NCBI RefSeq assembly: GCF_009670965.2
Contig: NZ_CP073239.1
Span: 1,364,001 to 1,428,000, forward strand
From: Riemerella anatipestifer
GTDB taxonomy: Bacteria > Bacteroidota > Bacteroidia > Flavobacteriales > Weeksellaceae
Length of the DNA: 64,000 bases
Reading direction: 5' to 3'
A program made the translations under genes and the position numbers. Under the pieces are notes generated by a model that was not told the DNA's origin, made no database searches, and worked only from the letters and a program-made list of their open reading frames with translations. Below are positions 24,405-59,908 of this stretch, one piece after another (position 1 is the first letter of the stretch; each line of letters opens with the position of its first letter).

Positions 24405-24466
24405 AACCGACTTCGTCTGTATTAAGGAAGTGAGGTGTTTTTCTGTAATAGAATAAATAGAAAGCA

Positions 24467-24505
24467 AAAATCCCTGCTCTGTACCATACAGAGCAGGGAT
24501 TTTTT
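24467..24505. terminator. Terminator at the distal end of the CRISPR array (bidirectional)
   Basis: A 16-bp perfect stem, AAAATCCCTGCTCTGT (24467-24482) with ACAGAGCAGGGATTTT (24488-24503), 5-nt loop, A and T runs on both sides. It lies 12 nt beyond the last repeat in the direction of array transcription (minus), so it should end the pre-crRNA, and can also stop plus-strand readthrough. Confidence 0.85.
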
Positions 24506-24516
24506 TATGCCCTTAT

Positions 24517-27500
24517 GTTGTGAATACTCTTCAAATATTACGCATTCACGAACTCCGCTGAAAGCAACGACAAAGCCGTGAGCTAAACTGAGAGCAGTCC
24601 CAACAACAATATAATTATAAAAGACTGTTGAAATGTTGTGAATACCCTTCAAATGTTACGCATTCACGAACTCTGCTGAAAATACAACAAAGCTGTGAGC
24701 TAAACTGAGAGCAGTCCCAACTTCGGCATCTTTCAAAATAGGCTGGAATGTGTTGTGAATACCCTTCAAATGCTGTGCATTCACAAACTCCACTGAAAAC
24801 ACAACAAAGCTGTGAGCTAAAATGAGAGCAGTCCCAACTGACGCCAATTTCAGCGAATACATGGTTTTGTTGTGAATACCCTTCAGAATGGGAGCAGTCC
24901 CAACTTCAGTGCCTCTTCTGGCTTTTGAGCCATTGTTGTGAATACCCTTCAGAATGGGAGCAGTCCCAACATAACCATGGGACTAGAAAAAGAAATCTGG
25001 GTTGTGAATACCCTTCAGAATGAGAGTAGTCCCAACGCTACATCATTTCCTGAAAGGTCTTCTCTTGTTGTGAATACCCTTCAGAATGAGAGTAGTCCCA
25101 ACAAAAGAGCGAATGAAATGGGCAGAAGAACAGTTGTGAATACCCTTCAGAATGAGAGTAGTCCCAACCTTTCTTACTAATTGATGCTACTTTAGATAGT
25201 TGTGAATACCCTTCAAATGTTACGCATTCACGAACTCCGCTGAAAACACAACAAAGCTGTGAGCAAAATGAGAGCAGTCCCAACCAAGGGTTTTCGGTAA
25301 TGCATGGGTTTCAGGTTGTGAGTACCCTTCAAATGTTATGCATTCACGAACTCTGCTGAAAACGACAACGAAGCTGTGAGCTAAACTGAGAGCAGTCCCA
25401 ACGAAAATAACAGAAATGTTCAAGGCACTTTCGTTGTGAATATCCTTCAAATGCTATGCATTCACGAACTCCGCTGAAAACAACAACAAAGCTGTGAGCT
25501 AAACTGAGAGCAGTCCCAACTTTAGAGCCTCCGCAGAAAACCAAAAGGTAGTTGTGAATACCCTTCAAATGTTAAGCATTCACGAACTCTGCTGAAAACT
25601 ACAACAAAGTTGTGAGCTAAACTGAGAGCAGTCCCAACATAACCATGGGACTAGAAAAAGAAATCTGGGTTGTTAATACCCTTCAAATGTTATGCATTCA
25701 CGAACTCTGCTGAAAACAACAACGAAGCCGTGAGTAAACTGAGAGCAGTCCCAACAGAATATCAAAACAATTAAAAGAAAAGTTAGTTGTGAACACCCTT
25801 CAAAATGAGAGCAGTCCCAACAAGTGTTTACATTTCAATTTAAAGTTCACTGTTGTGAATACCCTTCAAAAGTTACGCATTCACGAACTCCGCTGAAAAC
25901 ACAACGAAGCTGTGAGCTAAACTGAGAGCAGTCCCAACATAACCATGGGACTAGAAAAAGAAATCTGGGTTGTTAATACCCTTCAAATGCTATGCATTCA
26001 CGAACTCCGCTGAAAACAACAACGAAGCGTGAGCTAAAATGAGAGCAGTCCCAACTCTGTATTTCGTATTTCAAGCTGTGAAATAGTTGTGAATACCCTT
26101 CAAATGTTACGCATTCACGAACTCCGCTGAAACTACAATAAAGTCGTGAGTAAACTGAGAGCAGTCCCAACCAATATAACATTAGCTACTTAAACCACGA
26201 TGTTGTTAATACCCTTCAAAGTGAGAGCAGTCCCAACACGGCAATCATTGGTGCCGTGAAAGCAATTGTTGTGAATACCCTTCAAAATGAGAGCCGTCCC
26301 AACTTCTATGAGTTACCGAATGGCTGACGAAATGTTGTGAATACCCTTCAAAATGAGAGCCGTCCCAACAGAAAGTAGAAAAGGGTTTATTAGAAATTGG
26401 TTGTGAATACCCTTCAAAAGCTATGCATTCACGAACTCCGCTGAAAATACAACAAAGCTGTGAGCTAAACTGAGAGCAGTCCCAACCTAACCATAAAAGA
26501 CACCAAAGAATGGAAGGTTGTGAATACCCTTCAAATGTTATGCATTCACGAACTCCATTGAAAATACAACAAAGTTGTGAGTAAAATGAGAGCAGTCCCA
26601 ACTTACGAAAATAGCCCCTGAGTTTAAGTACGGTTGTGAATACCCTTCAAATGTCATGCATTCACGAACTCCATTGAAAACGACAACAAAGCTGTGAGCT
26701 AAACTGAGAGCAGTCCCAACTAATAGATGTAGAGTTTAAGTATAAAGAGAGTTGTTAATACCCTTCAAATGCTATGCATTCACGAACTCCGCTGAAAGCA
26801 ACAACAAAGCCGTGAGTAAACTGAGAGCAGTCCCAACCAGACAAATCAAAGATTTGCAAGCGAAACAGTTGTGAATACCCTTCAAATGCTTAAGCATTCA
26901 CGAACTCCATTGAAACTACAATAAAGCTGTGAGCTAAAATGAGAGCAGTCCCAACTTACGAAAATAGCCCCTGAGTTTAAGTACGGTTGTGAATACCCTT
27001 CAAATGTTACGCATTCACGAACTCCGCTGAAAACACAACAAAGCTGTGAGCTAAAATGAGAGCAGTCCCAACGAAAAGGAGTTTCTCCTTATGGTAGTCA
27101 TAGTTGTGAATACCCTTCAAATGTTAAGCATTCACGAACTCCATTGAAAATACAACAAAGCTGTGAGCTAAAATGAGAGCAGTCCCAACTATTGGTGCAA
27201 CATATTTTATTATAGATTAGTTGTGAATACCCTTCAAAATGAGAGCAGTCCCAACTTCTCTTTCATAGAAAAATGGAAATCTGTTGTTGTGAATACCCTT
27301 CAAAATGAGAGCAGTCCCAACTTATGAAATTTTTTAAAAAATTGTTTTCTAGTTGTGAATACCCTTCAAAATGAGAGCAGTCCCAACGCTATTCTATGCA
27401 AAAAGCTATACCAACTAGTTGTGAATACCCTTCAAATGTTACGCATTCACGAACTCCATTGAAAATACAATAAAGCTGTGAGCTAAAATGAGAGCAGTCC

Positions 27501-27564
27501 CAACTTATCATTAGATGCAAACAAATACCAGTTAGTTGTGAATACCCTTCAAATGCTGTGCATT
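24517..27564 (-). CRISPR. Type VI-B CRISPR array, 31 spacers, mixed 36-nt and 86-88-nt repeats
   Basis: 31 complete repeats plus one truncated repeat, and 31 spacers, every one exactly 30 nt. On the plus strand the short repeat is GTTGTGAATACCCTTCAAA + ATGAGAGCAGTCCCAAC (36 nt). Twelve are short: starts 24869, 24935, 25001, 25067, 25133, 25786, 26202, 26268, 26334, 27220, 27286, 27352. Nineteen are long (86-88 nt), the same two halves with about 51 nt inserted between them: starts 24517, 24635, 24752, 25199, 25315, 25433, 25551, 25669, 25852, 25969, 26086, 26400, 26517, 26633, 26751, 26868, 26986, 27103, 27418. The cas-proximal repeat at 27535-27564 keeps only 30 nt. The crRNA strand is minus, since the Cas13b repeat as I remember it starts GTTGGGACTGCTCTCA, giving the order cas13b-csx28-array in one direction. 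Spacers at 24971, 25639 and 25939 are identical, as are those at 26603 and 26956, so 28 are distinct. Confidence 0.97.
27535..27564 (-). repeat. Truncated long repeat at the cas-proximal end
   Basis: Only the 19-nt outer half and the first 11 nt of the long insert (TGCTGTGCATT) remain; at 27565 the sequence turns into ATCGTTATGATAAGG. In crRNA orientation this is the first repeat, lacking its 5' part. It is usually the far end of an array that decays. Confidence 0.8.
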
Positions 27565-27633
27565 ATCGTTATGATAAGGTATTGTCTTTTTTTGGTGCTT
27601 GTTTTATCTCGGTGTTTCAAAGAACGCTTTTCT

Positions 27634-28170
27634 TTACAACGCTTTTAAATCGCGTTGTTCTATTTTTAGGCATTGCCTAATGCTTTGGCTCAACTTCTGA
27701 TGCAGCTCCTTCATTCTGGTAGCTACCTCTTCGTTTTTTAGTCGGAACTCCGCCTCGGTGCTGTTTTGCTCTGCAAGTAGGAGCTTATAAACGATACTAC
27801 GGTACTCAAAAAACTTTTTGGTGACTTCTTCAGATAAGAAGAGCCCACAGCCCTCCCCATAAAATAGCTCTGGGAGTTCCCTTAGAAAGGCTTGGGCATT
27901 GGCTCGGTTAATATAATGAATTTTATGCTTTTGCCCTTTGGGAACTTCCCATTTTAAGAGGTTTTTGGGGTTGTCTTGGTCGGTCATATACGCCAGCAGA
28001 CGGTACATCTGCTTATGGGCATGGAGTATGTCCTCGTACTTTTGGCGTTCAATGTTGCCCTTAAGCTCTTGCCTAATCTTACGGGACAACACAATGGTAG
28101 ATACAATGGCAGACACAATGACGGCAATGGTAGGGGTTACTATTTTTAAAACTTCTAATATCCAATACAT
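27634..28170 (-). CDS. csx28: Csx28, membrane-anchored accessory protein of type VI-B2
   Basis: 178 residues. One transmembrane helix near residues 5-28 (IVTPTIAVIVSAIVSTIVL) is followed by a charged helical cytoplasmic domain. A single RxxxxH motif, R152-MKEL-H157, is what is expected of the divergent HEPN-like domain described for Csx28. Length, topology and position right beside cas13b fit Csx28 rather than the multi-helix Csx27 of VI-B1. In the characterised Prevotella system Csx28 forms a membrane pore that strengthens Cas13b defence. It starts 6 nt after the cas13b stop and precedes the array by about 70 nt, all in one direction. Assignment is by context and topology, not by alignment. 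Confidence 0.82.
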   Translation of the reverse strand: MYWILEVLKIVTPTIAVIVSAIVSTIVLSRKIRQELKGNIERQKYEDILHAHKQMYRLLAYMTDQDNPKNLLKWEVPKGQKHKIHYINRANAQAFLRELPELFYGEGCGLFLSEEVTKKFFEYRSIVYKLLLAEQNSTEAEFRLKNEEVATRMKELHQKLSQSIRQCLKIEQRDLKAL

Positions 28171-28176
28171 ACTATT

Positions 28177-31100
28177 CTAAATTTGAGATTTAACAATTTC
28201 GCAATATTCACGCAAGACTCTTAGCAACGCTTCGGCAATGCCTAAGCCGTCTTTTTCTTCGGTGGTTGGCTGGGCAACCGTAAAGAGCGGAATAGGAGCG
28301 TGGAGGGCTTCCTTGTAAAAAGGGTATTGGTTATGACAGAAGGCATTGCGTACCGAGGCGATAAAGGCGATATGCTCGTCCGTAACCTTGGAGGAAGTAG
28401 CATACTCTTTCTTCCATTCTTCTAACAATATTCGGAACTTATTCTCTAAACTGGAGAGGCTGGTATGTTTCTTCAGTAGTTTCTCTTCCAAGTCTAAGGT
28501 TTCTTTAAAGGCATCTACCCTTAGCGATTGGTAAATCTCCAACTCCCGTCTTAGTCTGAGCTGACTAATCGGGTGCTTTTGGGTGTCGTTCTCCTCTTTG
28601 ATAAAACTAAACAAACCGTTAAGACGGCGGTCTTTTACCAAGGCTTTAAAGTTCCCCATTTTAAGGGCTTTGGTCTGCTCTTCTCGGATATAGACGGTTC
28701 TTATCGGTGTTTCTTGGTATTGTACTTCCCCCAATGCAGTGGCAGGATAGACTTTTACAGGCAATACCATAGGCAAGGTTTGGTTCAGCGGATTGAGCTT
28801 GGCGTCTGCTTCCTGAACATTGACCTCCAAGTTCTTTAGTTTGAGCTGGTGGTCGTTCAGTTTCAGTTCTTTAAAGTGATTTTTTGTCAGCTCTAAGGTC
28901 ATCAGCCAAAGCATAATATCTTGGTTTCTGTAGAGCCTAAGTTTCTTCTCCAAATGTTGCCAGCGTTTGTAGAGGAGGTAGTCTTTCCATCGGTCAGAGG
29001 TATGCAACTCCAGCCTCTGCGACTCCGTAGGGCTTTGGGGTTTGTTCTGCTGCCAATATTCGTAGTGGTCTTTCTTCGGTAGCGGCGATGCCTTGGCTTC
29101 TAACTTGTACGGAAGGTCGTAAAAACTCTGGTGGTCGTCTTGGTACTTTTCCTTAAAGTACAGCGTAATGGCTCTGGAGATAAAGCCCACTCTGCCGTGT
29201 TTTTTAATCTCCTTTCTAATAGGTTTGGATAGCGTGAGGTCTTCCGAAAGGGTCTCTCTAATCGCTTCGGTAAACAGTCCTCTTGGCAGGCTAATGCCCC
29301 CTTGTTCCCAACCTTTAACCAGATTTTTTCTATTCTCTTTCGGTATTTTAAGAAGTAGACAGTACTGGTATGGTTCCCAAGGTTGGTTTTTGATAGCTTC
29401 TAAGAATTTTTCTCTTTGTTCCAGATACTGTTGGTAAAAGTCCACCAAATTTCTGCACGCTTTCCAATTGAATTTATTTAGGAACGGATGCGGGTTGGTA
29501 TTTCCGATGAGGTTGGTTTGTTTAAAGTAGCCTTCTAATCGGTTCTTTTCGCCTCCGTACAAGGCTAATGCTCTTTGGATAAGCTGAAATTCTGTGCTGT
29601 TGGCTTTACTGCTCTCTATAGGTTGATTTTGAACATCGTAAGCCACAGGCTGAAATCGCATAAAGTCTTTCACCAGCCAATCAGCCAATACGCCTGTCTT
29701 GATGAGCTTTTCTCGTCTCTTTCCGAGCTTTGGAGAGCTTTTTAGTTTGGTGTTGAGGCGATGGGAGAGCAGCTTAGTTTCGGCTATTAGTTTTTCTATT
29801 TTGATTTTGGCTTTTTCCGAAAGGTCGGGTTGTTTGTTTTGTAGTAAGCCCAACATTTGTTTTGGAAAGGCTCCTAAAGGAAGGCGACCTTGGTTGGCTT
29901 TTTCTAAATCTTCAATCGTGTTGATGCGTTCTTCTTCAAAGTCTTTGTAAATCCTTTGGATATGTCTAACGGTTTCCTTCAACAAGTCTTCCGATTTACC
30001 AGTTAAATGCTGGTAGAACATCAGCGGTAATAATTCGTGGACACTGATAAAAGCATGAGCCACAAAATCGGAATTATAGGGATATTTGGCTATGCGGTTG
30101 GCACCGTCTTTTACCTCCAACGAAGGGTACAACTCTTTAGAAGTTCTTAAGCGGAAGCCGATTTTGTTATCGGTAATATGGTAGTGCGGAGTGGTTTTAC
30201 TAATAAATGGTTGATTGGAAGTCTCTTTATAGTCGAGGTCTTTGGTGAGAGCCTTCCACTCTTGGGGACGGTTTATCTCTGTGAAATCTTGTAGCCTACC
30301 GAAGCTCAATAGGGTTCGGGTCAGGTGGCGTTTCTCTTGTTCATCGCCTATTTTCTTGTCGTAAATACAGTAATGGTAAGTGCCTAAATCCACTTGAAAC
30401 CTTATGGACTTAAAAGACTCATTGAGGTCTAAATAGCGTAGAGCAAAATAAGGAAAACGGTCTTGATGCCTGATCAAGGTATCTTTAAAAGGGTTTTGTT
30501 CTTCCTCAATTTCGTCCAAAAAGCCATCAGCTTCTACCTGAAAATGTTTTTTATTCTCTTCGGAGAGTTTTTCATAGAGCAGTTTAGGGCAACGGCTCAG
30601 TTCAGAAAGCATATCCAAGAGCATTTGGTTATGGTCGTATCGGCTCTCTAACCTTAGTTTAGGAAGGAGTATGCGGCTTCTGCAAAACACTTCGGTGGTC
30701 ATTTTTTCGCTTTGTTTATGACTGGATTTAAAACCACTGACTTTTTTCAGCATCCAGTAGGCATCGCGTTTGTCCAAAAATAGATTAGTGAAAAACAATA
30801 GCCCTGATTCTGTAAAAAAGCCGTCTTTTTCGAAGCGGTAGCGGTTGAAGTCAGGGTTGTCTTGCTTGTTCTTACCTTTTCTGTTTAGATGGGCAAAGTC
30901 CCGAGTGAGGTTGACGGTAAAGTGGACTTTGTAGTCCTCTTTTACCATTCGTAAAGAAGCGTCAAAGGCTTTGTAAAGATGTTTAAAAATATCTTTTTCT
31001 GCATCGAGTTTTTTGTGGCTGTGGTGGCTGTAGTAGTTCCTAAGATTGCGGAGTTGCTTTACAAGGGTTTTCAATGCCTTAATCAATTCGCTTGGATTAA

Positions 31101-31464
31101 GAGCCTCGGTTTGAGATTGGGCTTCATTTTCTTTCTCTTTCTGCTGCTCTTTTTGGTGCCCCTTCTTTTTTCCCTCTTTTTTAGGAGGGTGGTAGCACAT
31201 TGCCGTCAGGAACGGGAAGTGTTTTAGGATAAGTTCCGTTAGTTGGCTCTTCTTGAGTAAATCGTGGTCGTTGTTGAGTATATTATTCCATGTCCCACAG
31301 ACAACATCTGCGATTTTGTCATCATTTGAAGGGGTCTTAAGCCCCAACTGTTCGTTGATATGGCAGATGGTGATAAAAGCATTATGCCTCGCAATGTTAA
31401 GGAAAGCTCCCCAAAAGAACTTGTGTTTCAGTGTGTAAACATTCGGTAGTAAAGGTTTTTCCAT
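28177..31464 (-). CDS. cas13b: Cas13b, RNA-guided RNA nuclease of type VI-B CRISPR
   Basis: 1095 residues. Two HEPN RNase motifs lie at the protein ends as in all Cas13b: R142-NYYS-H147 (LRNLRNYYSHHSH) and R1039-NAFC-H1044 (SVRNAFCHNQYPFY). A Lys/Glu-rich low-complexity insert near residues 95-120 sits in HEPN1. The middle carries the helical and lid regions that process pre-crRNA. The sequence matches, as I remember it, the R. anatipestifer Cas13b, with scattered substitutions. It binds crRNAs with the spacer 5' and the repeat 3', cleaves matching RNA, and then cuts bystander RNA. It is the first gene of the minus-strand cas13b-csx28-array unit; no cas1, cas2 or tracrRNA is nearby. Confidence 0.97.
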   Translation of the reverse strand: MEKPLLPNVYTLKHKFFWGAFLNIARHNAFITICHINEQLGLKTPSNDDKIADVVCGTWNNILNNDHDLLKKSQLTELILKHFPFLTAMCYHPPKKEGKKKGHQKEQQKEKENEAQSQTEALNPSELIKALKTLVKQLRNLRNYYSHHSHKKLDAEKDIFKHLYKAFDASLRMVKEDYKVHFTVNLTRDFAHLNRKGKNKQDNPDFNRYRFEKDGFFTESGLLFFTNLFLDKRDAYWMLKKVSGFKSSHKQSEKMTTEVFCRSRILLPKLRLESRYDHNQMLLDMLSELSRCPKLLYEKLSEENKKHFQVEADGFLDEIEEEQNPFKDTLIRHQDRFPYFALRYLDLNESFKSIRFQVDLGTYHYCIYDKKIGDEQEKRHLTRTLLSFGRLQDFTEINRPQEWKALTKDLDYKETSNQPFISKTTPHYHITDNKIGFRLRTSKELYPSLEVKDGANRIAKYPYNSDFVAHAFISVHELLPLMFYQHLTGKSEDLLKETVRHIQRIYKDFEEERINTIEDLEKANQGRLPLGAFPKQMLGLLQNKQPDLSEKAKIKIEKLIAETKLLSHRLNTKLKSSPKLGKRREKLIKTGVLADWLVKDFMRFQPVAYDVQNQPIESSKANSTEFQLIQRALALYGGEKNRLEGYFKQTNLIGNTNPHPFLNKFNWKACRNLVDFYQQYLEQREKFLEAIKNQPWEPYQYCLLLKIPKENRKNLVKGWEQGGISLPRGLFTEAIRETLSEDLTLSKPIRKEIKKHGRVGFISRAITLYFKEKYQDDHQSFYDLPYKLEAKASPLPKKDHYEYWQQNKPQSPTESQRLELHTSDRWKDYLLYKRWQHLEKKLRLYRNQDIMLWLMTLELTKNHFKELKLNDHQLKLKNLEVNVQEADAKLNPLNQTLPMVLPVKVYPATALGEVQYQETPIRTVYIREEQTKALKMGNFKALVKDRRLNGLFSFIKEENDTQKHPISQLRLRRELEIYQSLRVDAFKETLDLEEKLLKKHTSLSSLENKFRILLEEWKKEYATSSKVTDEHIAFIASVRNAFCHNQYPFYKEALHAPIPLFTVAQPTTEEKDGLGIAEALLRVLREYCEIVKSQI

Positions 31465-59605: not shown

Positions 59606-59908
59606 TTACAAGGTTGCTCTATTTTCTCCTTTTACAATCGTGTTTTTCCTAGTTGCATTTCTGTTTTCCTCTGTTACATTTCTATTTTCTCCTTTTACAA
59701 TCGTATTTTTCCTAGTTGCATTTCTGTTTTCCTCTGTTACATTTCTATTTTCTCCTTTTGCAATCGTATTTTTCCTAGTTGCATTTCTGTTTTCCTCTAT
59801 TACATTTCTATCTTCTCCTATTACAATCGTACTTTTTATGGTTGGAGTTCTATTTCCATACACTTTTAAATCAAATAGTGATGTTGTTTTTAGTAATTTA
59901 ATTAGCAC
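59606..59908 (-). CDS. Possible small heptad-repeat protein downstream of the pseudouridine synthase gene
   Basis: 100 residues if started at GTG 59908, which overlaps the end of the pseudouridine synthase gene by 11 nt, allowing translational coupling. Residues about 33-96 are nine copies of a 7-residue unit in three types, such as RNVTEEN, RNATRKN and TIVKGEN. They come from a 21-bp DNA repeat grouped into 63-bp blocks, a multiple of three, so copy-number change keeps the frame. The protein would be very hydrophilic and Asn/Arg/Glu rich. The opposite strand is also open, so coding is not proven. Confidence 0.3.
   Translation of the reverse strand: MLIKLLKTTSLFDLKVYGNRTPTIKSTIVIGEDRNVIEENRNATRKNTIAKGENRNVTEENRNATRKNTIVKGENRNVTEENRNATRKNTIVKGENRATL
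59621..59851. repeat. 21-bp/63-bp tandem repeat
   Basis: Eleven 21-bp units arranged as 3.7 copies of a 63-bp higher-order repeat: the block beginning ATTTTCTCCTTTTACAATCG recurs at 59621, 59684 and 59747, and in diverged form at 59810. The first three 63-bp blocks are almost identical, the last is degenerate. It lies between the converging SusD and pseudouridine synthase genes. Confidence 0.92.

Follow-up and report, generated by a model that had tools for sequence, protein, structure and literature searches.

Long repeats of a type VI-B2 CRISPR array in Riemerella anatipestifer probably carry a mobile mini-element in the repeat hairpin loop

Organization of the type VI-B2 locus

The window, that is, the whole 64,000-nucleotide stretch of Riemerella anatipestifer DNA analyzed here, contains a type VI-B2 CRISPR-Cas locus with Cas13b and Csx28. 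The cas13b gene (28177..31464, minus strand; 1095 aa) matched the profile NF038190 with 868 bits (cut-off 150), and two R-x4-H HEPN motifs were found by eye in its translation. The adjoining csx28 gene (27634..28170, minus strand; 178 aa) matched NF040556 with 262.5 bits (cut-off 50) and was also called Csx28 by PADLOC. In the Cas13b phylogeny, Riemerella fell into a 10-row clade with Prevotella, Hoylesella, Segatella and Porphyromonas rows, supported at 100/100, which we take to be VI-B2. The nearest named relative was R. anatipestifer CCUG25054, whose Cas13b is 96% identical, in agreement with the species assumed in an earlier note on this DNA.

The CRISPR array (24517..27564), presumably transcribed from the minus strand, consists of 31 full repeats, 31 spacers of exactly 30 nt each, and a half repeat at the leader end. 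Twelve repeats have the 36 nt expected of type VI-B2, and the other 19 are 36-nt repeats with an insert, measuring 87 nt (ten), 88 nt (six) or 86 nt (three). Read along the plus strand, three long repeats (24517..24604, 88 nt, degenerate and at the leader-distal end; 24635..24721 and 24752..24838, 87 nt each) are followed by a block of five short repeats sharing the loop variant CAGAAT (24869..25168; 24869-24904, 24935-24970, 25001-25036, 25067-25102 and 25133-25168). Then come five long repeats (25199..25284, 86 nt; 25315..25402, 25433..25520 and 25551..25638, 88 nt each; 25669..25755, 87 nt), a lone short repeat (25786..25821), three long repeats (25852..25938 and 25969..26055, 87 nt each; 26086..26171, 86 nt) and three short ones (26202..26369; 26202-26237, 26268-26303 and 26334-26369). 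Seven long repeats (26400..26486, 87 nt; 26517..26602, 86 nt; 26633..26720, 88 nt; 26751..26837, 87 nt; 26868..26955, 88 nt; 26986..27072 and 27103..27189, 87 nt each), three short repeats (27220..27387; 27220-27255, 27286-27321 and 27352-27387) and one leader-proximal full long repeat (27418..27504, 87 nt) complete the array, all on the minus strand. These two classes, their numbers, lengths, spacers and block order agree in full with what the earlier note had described. A changed A run, read from the comparison of repeats, is present in six of the 12 short repeats.

The insert occupies a single site, CTTCA/AAATGAGAGC, in the loop of the hairpin formed on the minus (crRNA) strand. The earlier note placed the same fixed loop site at CTTCAAA/ATGAGAGC, which is equivalent because of the A run. 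Within each long repeat, the insert extends from about repeat start +17 to repeat end -19 in plus-strand coordinates, for example at 27003-27053 in the repeat 26986..27072. A G+C-rich inverted repeat with a T run (24466..24506), which resembles a terminator and was read directly from the sequence, adjoins the leader-distal end. At the other end, a 32nd unit (27535-27564) comprises the initial 30 nt of a long repeat and is fused to leader sequence (27535..27586 for the two together, minus strand); AAUACC of the leader pairs with the GGUAUU in this half repeat. The three further Riemerella arrays that were fetched (L019, L020 and L026) also have this fused end.

One spacer, CCAGATTT..., is found in both repeat classes: the copy at 24971..25000 is followed by a short repeat, and the copies at 25639..25668 and 25939..25968 are each followed by a long repeat (all minus strand). 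Two of the 31 spacer units, one per repeat class, matched phages. Unit 13 (26304..26333, minus strand), belonging to the short repeat 26268-26303, matched the endolysin gene in Riemerella phages, and unit 11 (26487..26516, minus strand), belonging to the long repeat 26400-26486, had an exact match in all six Riemerella phages fetched. Inspected by eye against the gene tables, the guides are antisense to phage genes or to a transcript through them. The matches are flanked by A on the 5' side and by GAA/ATA or CAG/TAG/AAG on the 3' side; both units agree with the flanks used here to define VI-B2 targets (5' non-C, 3' NAN/NNA).

The insert outside CRISPR arrays

Sequence comparison identified the insert of about 51 nt as a member of a family of elements of about 50 nt that are dispersed in genomes of Flavobacteriales. 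A strict two-ended pattern matched 15 of 296 genomes in a family-level set, 12 of which had copies outside CRISPR, and six of 246 in an order-level set, five with copies outside CRISPR; the two sets overlap in that G002 and G005 are in both, and the reversed-pattern control gave 0 in each. With a one-ended pattern, 15 of 99 relatives matched (three in arrays and two probably by chance), against 1/99 for the reversed control. A model of the whole repeat (R2) recovered only array copies in the 99 relatives.

Filled and empty sites occur in copies of one transposase gene in genome G035, a piece of which matches PF00872: one copy of the gene (L114) is filled and two (L122 and L125) are empty, the base beside the site being A in the filled copy and T in the empty ones. 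Open frames reappeared when the flanks were joined, in this transposase as well as in G020, where the frame has 590 codons. Dispersed copies and the CRISPR repeat have the same border geometry, A/AATGC...TA/AAAT (slashes mark the borders). The dispersed copies are sparse, with one or two per genome, and lie at unrelated sites as judged by inspection of their flanks; several represent one site inherited within a genus, leaving about nine distinct sites in the family-level set. Most of those inspected by eye showed no obvious hairpin at the site. The copies have putative TIRs (TCAC/GTGA) of 4-7 nt, and most have AAAT or AAAC at both borders as a candidate TSD, but inside A runs. No autonomous partner with the same ends was seen among the matches. 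Because copies are few, the TIR and TSD are short and A-rich, and no partner was seen, we call the element mobile on account of its empty sites and not of a mechanism.

The search for dispersed copies in G001, G053 and G067 yielded no intact one, but only a degenerate copy (L115). A further model (R3) found no match among 16 genomes from other hosts of Cas13b, a set containing no positive control, and plasmids yielded no match to the insert at an E-value of 0.01. Rfam assigned no family to the insert in the window (gathering threshold) or in five loci with dispersed copies (E up to 1).

Predicted structure of the insert in the crRNA

On the crRNA strand, the copies captured by arrays are predicted to form two hairpins that make up a self-contained domain; their mean minimum free energies are -16.5, -13.9 and -11.2, compared with -8.0 for dispersed copies. 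Because the captured insert folds as a self-contained domain, the canonical repeat stem is preserved. In the window, the pairing probability of this stem was 0.858 with native inserts and 0.674 with shuffled ones, with 382 of 1140 shuffles performing as well as the native insert. In a cross-genus alignment, itself fitted to the model structure and giving two weak measures out of five, 96.6% of cells were paired versus 92.8 in shuffles (0/500) and 60 cells carried double changes versus 12.2 (0/500); the weaker measures were double-change pairs (7 versus 4.7; 21/500) and further pair types (107/500). Cells of the insert stems were paired in 98.0% of cases in the crRNA sense and in 77.6% in the antisense. 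Within Riemerella alone, pairing was not above that of shuffles.

Other roles for the insert were also considered. A promoter was dropped, since no conserved -7/-33 pattern was visible by eye in the alignments, and a short CDS after a GGAG...RTG motif was rejected because of immediate stops in the Riemerella variants inspected. Allowing up to three mismatches, the conserved 15-nt core matched no other transcript outside the arrays in the window, L019 or L020.

Such a domain could also mean that selection keeps long and short repeats for different crRNA tasks, such as regulation, Csx28 dependence or nuclease tuning, with the insert functional from the start. Both classes occur together in all seven long-carrying arrays parsed, and phage-matching spacers with acceptable flanks are found in both, as this explanation would have it. 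The compensatory changes across genera on the crRNA strand also agree with it, but a requirement for an unobstructed stem can account for this conserved structure. Homologous elements exist outside arrays, one of them in a transposase gene, in many VI-B arrays no long class was seen, and an identical spacer is served by both classes; we consider a purpose-built pair of repeat classes unlikely.

Entry of the element into arrays

In three genera, Riemerella, Bergeyella and Flavobacterium, VI-B arrays carry the element at the same loop site, and the phylogeny of element copies suggests that these arrays captured it separately. This tree is weak, being built from 57 columns and including 15 of the 66 distinct array copies. 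The array copies did not form one group, and there were three label changes, at least two of them on starred branches, which need not all be entries into arrays. Array copies of Riemerella joined dispersed copies of G002, G035 and G067 (support 91, on an unstarred branch), and those of Bergeyella were placed with G047/G075. The CTAAAA end of these Riemerella copies is also found outside the genus, in G077 and G310, and is absent from five of the 19 long repeats in the window.

The 36-nt repeats of Riemerella and of the Bergeyella zoohelcum VI-B1 array are alike at 33 of 36 positions, leaving room for shared array ancestry. The Riemerella VI-B2 effector might then have adopted a VI-B1-type array of Flavobacteriales that already held the insert, which would have entered only once or twice. 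Likeness to the six VI-B2-clade arrays with a consensus is lower (23-27/36), and the seven arrays of the Prevotella/Porphyromonas group and its kin, with which the Cas13b tree places Riemerella, show no long class. However, the separate placement of Riemerella and Bergeyella copies in the element tree speaks against such an exchange, and the repeat likeness may instead follow from shared II-C adaptation machinery (Cas1 is present in G053 and G067, but not in G001). We judge an array exchange to be improbable.

Repeat copying and the order of blocks

The earlier note proposed that the blocks record whether a long or a short repeat was copied at acquisition. Repeats of the same class are indeed clustered, forming nine runs in the window versus 15.7 expected (p 0.0086) and 43 versus 72.4 over seven arrays pooled, a value reached in 0/20000 shuffles; four of the seven (L020, L026, L065 and L071) lacked significance when taken singly. 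The proposal holds for the short repeats, which are locally clonal: adjacent ones differ at 0.62 sites versus 2.05 overall (0/3000 permutations). It fails for the long repeats. No two of the 19 in the window are the same, and neighbors differ at 7.71 sites versus 7.60 for any two (p 0.61); likeness between neighbors was also absent in L019, L020, L026, L065 and B. zoohelcum. Since all long repeats are distinct within their own array, none of the 35 adjacent long-long pairs in four Riemerella arrays was identical, and linkage among long repeats was near zero beyond 3 nt. The long blocks thus do not record the repeat copied at acquisition, and for long repeats that reading could survive only if inserts diverged very rapidly once copied; with the leader-end repeat also truncated, we regard it as very improbable for the array as a whole. 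Least probable of all is that the insert originated in the repeat itself and its dispersed matches are chance hits: the element is short and A+T-rich, and two one-ended matches without the right end (G018 and G326) do look like chance, but the two-ended controls gave no match in the partly overlapping sets, and both filled and empty sites exist.

A tendency of long repeats to be older, that is, leader-distal, had a pooled p of 0.0043, but L020 pointed the other way and neither the window nor L026 showed anything, and this candidate was rejected. Protection of short repeats from insertion by mutation of the target site, in view of the changed A run in six of the 12, is suggestive only. In the L068 array, one spacing of 113 was observed.

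Origin of the long repeats

Taken together, we consider it probable that the long repeats are 36-nt VI-B repeats holding a mobile mini-element of about 51 nt in the A-rich hairpin loop. VI-B arrays may have acquired the element on more than one occasion, after which it would have been structurally tamed. Cas13b would cut the pre-crRNA at repeat ends as usual, giving crRNAs of 66 nt and 116-118 nt, both of which would load via the common stem. New spacers would arrive with short repeats, which are copied faithfully, and element copies would multiply in the array through recombination or re-insertion and not by repeat duplication at acquisition. More tentatively, the element may be specialized for CRISPR, colonizing the loop repeatedly, spreading from repeat to repeat after acquisition and being reshaped in each lineage into an insulated crRNA domain. 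If so, it would be a domesticated parasite of immune memory itself, perhaps tuning Cas13b now.

Short and long direct repeats in type VI-B CRISPR-Cas were reportedly described by Smargon et al. in 2017; reports of long VI-B crRNAs date from then on, and we know of no account of their origin or function. The element in the repeat loop probably accounts for the long guide RNAs of Cas13b systems, which are little understood, giving their intervening region an origin, and its identity as a dispersed mini-element suggests parallel entry into the same loop. It also makes it testable whether Cas13b tolerates any insulated loop domain, whether repeats can change after acquisition and whether long crRNAs behave differently. 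With one guide present in both repeat classes, the array contains its own test, and it points to the repeat loop as a natural site for extra domains in Cas13b guides.

Comparison with known systems

IS1397 is an element that inserts into the loops of REP sequences, which are repeat hairpins. The insert described here likewise has a fixed place in a repeated palindrome, but carries no transposase. The insert resembles MITE-like elements, as defined in PMC3718332, in being short and without a notable open frame, with a putative inverted repeat (TCAC...GTGA), an A-rich border at both ends and filled and empty sites. It differs in its length of only about 50 nt, its few copies per genome and the lack of a visible autonomous partner, and it is palindromic at one end only.

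In Flavobacterium columnare, VI-B arrays depend on II-C Cas1/Cas2, with adaptation in trans, and a repeat-length ruler problem has been raised for this VI-B/II-C adaptation (PMC8092290). The F. columnare array examined here (L066) has a single repeat class, unlike that of the window. An R. anatipestifer VI-B array acquired no spacers in a study to which that paper refers (PMC6008519).

Type VI-B systems with short and long repeats are also close counterparts. According to the review PMC8209922, these likewise have Cas13b and 36-nt repeats, some split by an intervening region, and VI-B loci produce short 66-nt and long 118-nt crRNAs. The two crRNA classes predicted by the earlier note, which would be 66 and 116-118 nt long here, have counterparts already reported. 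Its description of long repeats elsewhere as occasional underrated them, as 14 of 28 repeats in B. zoohelcum are long. An earlier identification of the intervening region as a dispersed element was not found in the literature searched, and what is new beside the reported crRNA lengths is the identity of the insert of about 51 nt, which the earlier note had not recognized as a dispersed element. The array of the window is set apart from the described VI-B systems by its majority of long repeats (19/31), its VI-B2-clade effector, the uniqueness of every long repeat and an intervening region identified as a dispersed element.

Organization of the array and its spacers

In the CRISPR array at 24517-27564 of the window, 12 full repeats measure 36 nt and the other 19 measure 86-88 nt, and all 31 spacers are exactly 30 nt. 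An earlier note had described long and short repeats alternating in blocks, and parsing of the array bore out that order. Beside the array, csx28 (27634-28170) and cas13b (28177-31464) are encoded on the minus strand; in the nearest named relative, R. anatipestifer CCUG25054, Cas13b is 96% identical. Repeat orientation is known for VI-B arrays, and because it concurs with the gene strand and with a terminator-like hairpin beyond 24517, we took the minus strand as the crRNA strand.

A half long repeat (27535-27564) continues into the leader. It is nearly alike at the leader end of the window array (27535-27586) and of three other Riemerella arrays (L019, L020 and L026), and AAUACC of the leader is the partner strand for its stem. 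Together they mimic a long repeat; the mimic may serve processing of the first crRNA and may also block ordinary acquisition at the leader end. Elsewhere in the window, a repeat scan found a short direct-repeat region with a period of about 63 (59618-59830).

The spacer of unit 11, which precedes a long repeat, matched all six fetched Riemerella phages exactly (six picked out of 20 records). That of unit 13, which precedes a short repeat, matched the endolysin gene: three of these phages contain it exactly, two with one mismatch, and the sixth gave no match. Judged by eye from gene tables, both guides are antisense to phage genes or to the transcript through them, and the flanks of both targets agree with the VI-B requirement. 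One guide is present in both repeat classes. Given this common guide and the phage matches in each class, long- and short-repeat units both look like real immune memory. In two different strains, the spacers of L019 unit 6 and L026 unit 1 share 19 identical bases when offset by 11, and they were probably acquired separately from one target region.

Long repeats in other arrays

Long repeats account for 19 of the 31 full repeats in the window array and for 8/23, 17/26 and 4/9 in the three other Riemerella arrays. They also make up 14/28 in Bergeyella zoohelcum ATCC 43767, 6/19 in Flavobacterium sp. J27 and 1/11 in F. covae, and a Flavobacteriaceae MAG (L064) has one at the distal end. A spacing survey of 42 Cas13b loci found an array in 37 and none in L042, L047, L050, L060 and L061. 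In this survey, no spacing class near 117 appeared in Prevotella-type, Porphyromonas, Chryseobacterium or B. cardium arrays, which gave only a spacing of about 66 and, wherever the counted word escaped detection, its multiples; L068 showed a single spacing of 113. In L026 (9041-14336; genome G001), cas13b is split into two parts by about 2 kb of sequence that holds further open frames, and the locus has a small array of nine full repeats. The cas13b of F. covae AL-02-36 (L071, 7716-10687) is seen as several separate open frames.

Dispersed copies and proposed captures

The insert also occurs outside CRISPR arrays. When 395 order genomes were searched with a covariance model, two gave matches: G001, in its array, and G002, within a transposase gene. 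The latter is a Riemerella genome that lacks a Cas13b match. A one-end pattern was found in 15 of 99 relatives (reversed control, 1/99); two of these matches, in G018 and G326, have no second end and look fortuitous. The two-ended pattern, which was not designed to detect B. zoohelcum or J27 copies, was found in 15 of 296 family genomes, 12 of them outside arrays, and in 6 of 246 order genomes, five with copies outside arrays, with reversed controls of 0 in both sets, which share G002 and G005. In G001, G053 and G067 it matched only within the CRISPR array. No autonomous partner was found among the element matches.

Flanks were inspected in 11 of the 12 family genomes with non-array copies (all but G096). 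One site is common to G057, G071, G081 and probably also G011, and further sites are shared by G047 and G075 and by G002, G035 and G077. In G035, one transposase gene, a piece of which matches the Mutator family (PF00872), is both empty (L122, L125) and filled (L114), and the base adjoining the site is A in the filled copy and T in the empty one. Removing the element gives back open frames in this transposase and in a 590-codon frame of G020. The borders in CRISPR repeats are those of the dispersed copies: CTTCA/AAATGAG in the short form and CTTCA/AATGC...CTA/AAATGAG in the long, with AAAC in place of AAAT at both borders in L133. G002, G035 and G077 (L145, L114 and L160), from two genera, carry the element at the same place in a Mutator/IS256-type transposase gene, which suggests that it may also move as part of an insertion sequence.

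In a quick-method tree built on 57 columns from 28 elements (13 dispersed copies and 15 of the 66 distinct array copies), the array label has to change three times, at least twice on starred branches. Riemerella array copies group with the dispersed copies of G002, G035 and G067 on an unstarred branch of support 91. Those of Bergeyella fall close to G047 and G075, and those of Flavobacterium are separate. If the dispersed state is older, this topology means that arrays captured the element separately, each time at the same place in the loop; some of the label changes could instead be escapes from arrays. The CTAAAA end is found in many Riemerella array copies and in G002 and G035, but also in G077 and G310. 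The Cas13b tree (35 rows, without the disrupted cas13b of G001 and of F. covae) likewise separates the hosts, with three changes: Riemerella falls within the VI-B2 clade, and the other clade holds Bergeyella, L064 and J27. The Riemerella 36-nt repeat is nearest to that of the B. zoohelcum VI-B1 array (33/36) and agrees at only 23-27/36 with those of six arrays whose effectors belong to the Riemerella clade, L037 and B. cardium having given no repeat consensus; with the repeat so placed, arrays may have been exchanged at an earlier time, in addition to the proposed separate captures.

Structure of the long repeat

The predicted crRNA-strand fold of the long repeat retains the canonical stem and has one long and one short hairpin in addition. 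Stem variants in Riemerella mostly preserve pairing, and in 47 distinct Riemerella repeats 98.0% of insert-stem cells are paired in the crRNA sense versus 77.6% in the opposite sense; within Riemerella alone, pairing is not above the shuffle control (98.7% vs 98.7). Across genera (64 distinct sequences, in an alignment fitted to the structure model, with an E-value cut that dropped two of six J27 repeats), pairing is 96.6% versus 92.8% in shuffles and double-change cells number 60 versus 12.2 (each 0/500), with 38-50% paired in slid controls. Two further cross-genus measures are weak (double-change pairs, 21/500; pair types, 107/500).

In the window, the stem pairs with a mean probability of 0.858 in native long repeats, against 0.674 when the inserts are shuffled, with 382 of 1140 shuffles reaching the native level. 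Six other arrays show the same direction, with a small gap in B. zoohelcum (0.973 vs 0.916). In the crRNA sense, array copies have mean folds of -16.5 (47 Riemerella), -13.9 (11 Bergeyella) and -11.2 kcal/mol (7 Flavobacterium). The 14 dispersed copies average -8.0 kcal/mol and are less stable than array copies (Mann-Whitney p 3e-8, a value resting on only about three independent captures). We read the greater stability of array copies as selection under which the insert would spare the stem that Cas13b recognises.

Copying and variation of the repeats

Local clonality is seen among the short repeats of the window, L019 and B. zoohelcum; in the window, neighbours differ at 0.62 sites versus 2.05 over all pairs (0/3000 permutations). 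The same test gave p 0.02 in L020, 0.07 in L026 and 0.37 in J27, and F. covae was uninformative. No two long repeats are identical within any Riemerella array (19/19, 8/8, 17/17 and 4/4 distinct) or in J27 (6/6), and B. zoohelcum has 11 distinct among 14 because of tandem duplication: in units 12-15 of its array (L027), two spacer-repeat units are duplicated with identical long repeats. Neighbouring long repeats are not more similar than other pairs, either in the window (7.71 vs 7.60, p 0.61) or in the other arrays (p 0.41 to 1.0).

Nucleotide diversity (pi) is 0.129 in the insert, 0.026 in the long-repeat flanks and 0.05 in short repeats. The four-gamete test is violated by 40 of 66 site pairs in the window. 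Linkage across the 48 long repeats of Riemerella averages r2 0.16 at distances of 1-3 nt and is close to zero at greater distances (0.03 beyond 10 nt). These patterns speak for inserts being shuffled among themselves, or for a few tolerated sites changing recurrently.

Comparison with known systems

In the accessible part of the open-licence literature, we found no report on the origin of the long repeat. A review (PMC8209922) describes VI-B crRNAs of two lengths, one of 66 nt and one of 118 nt.
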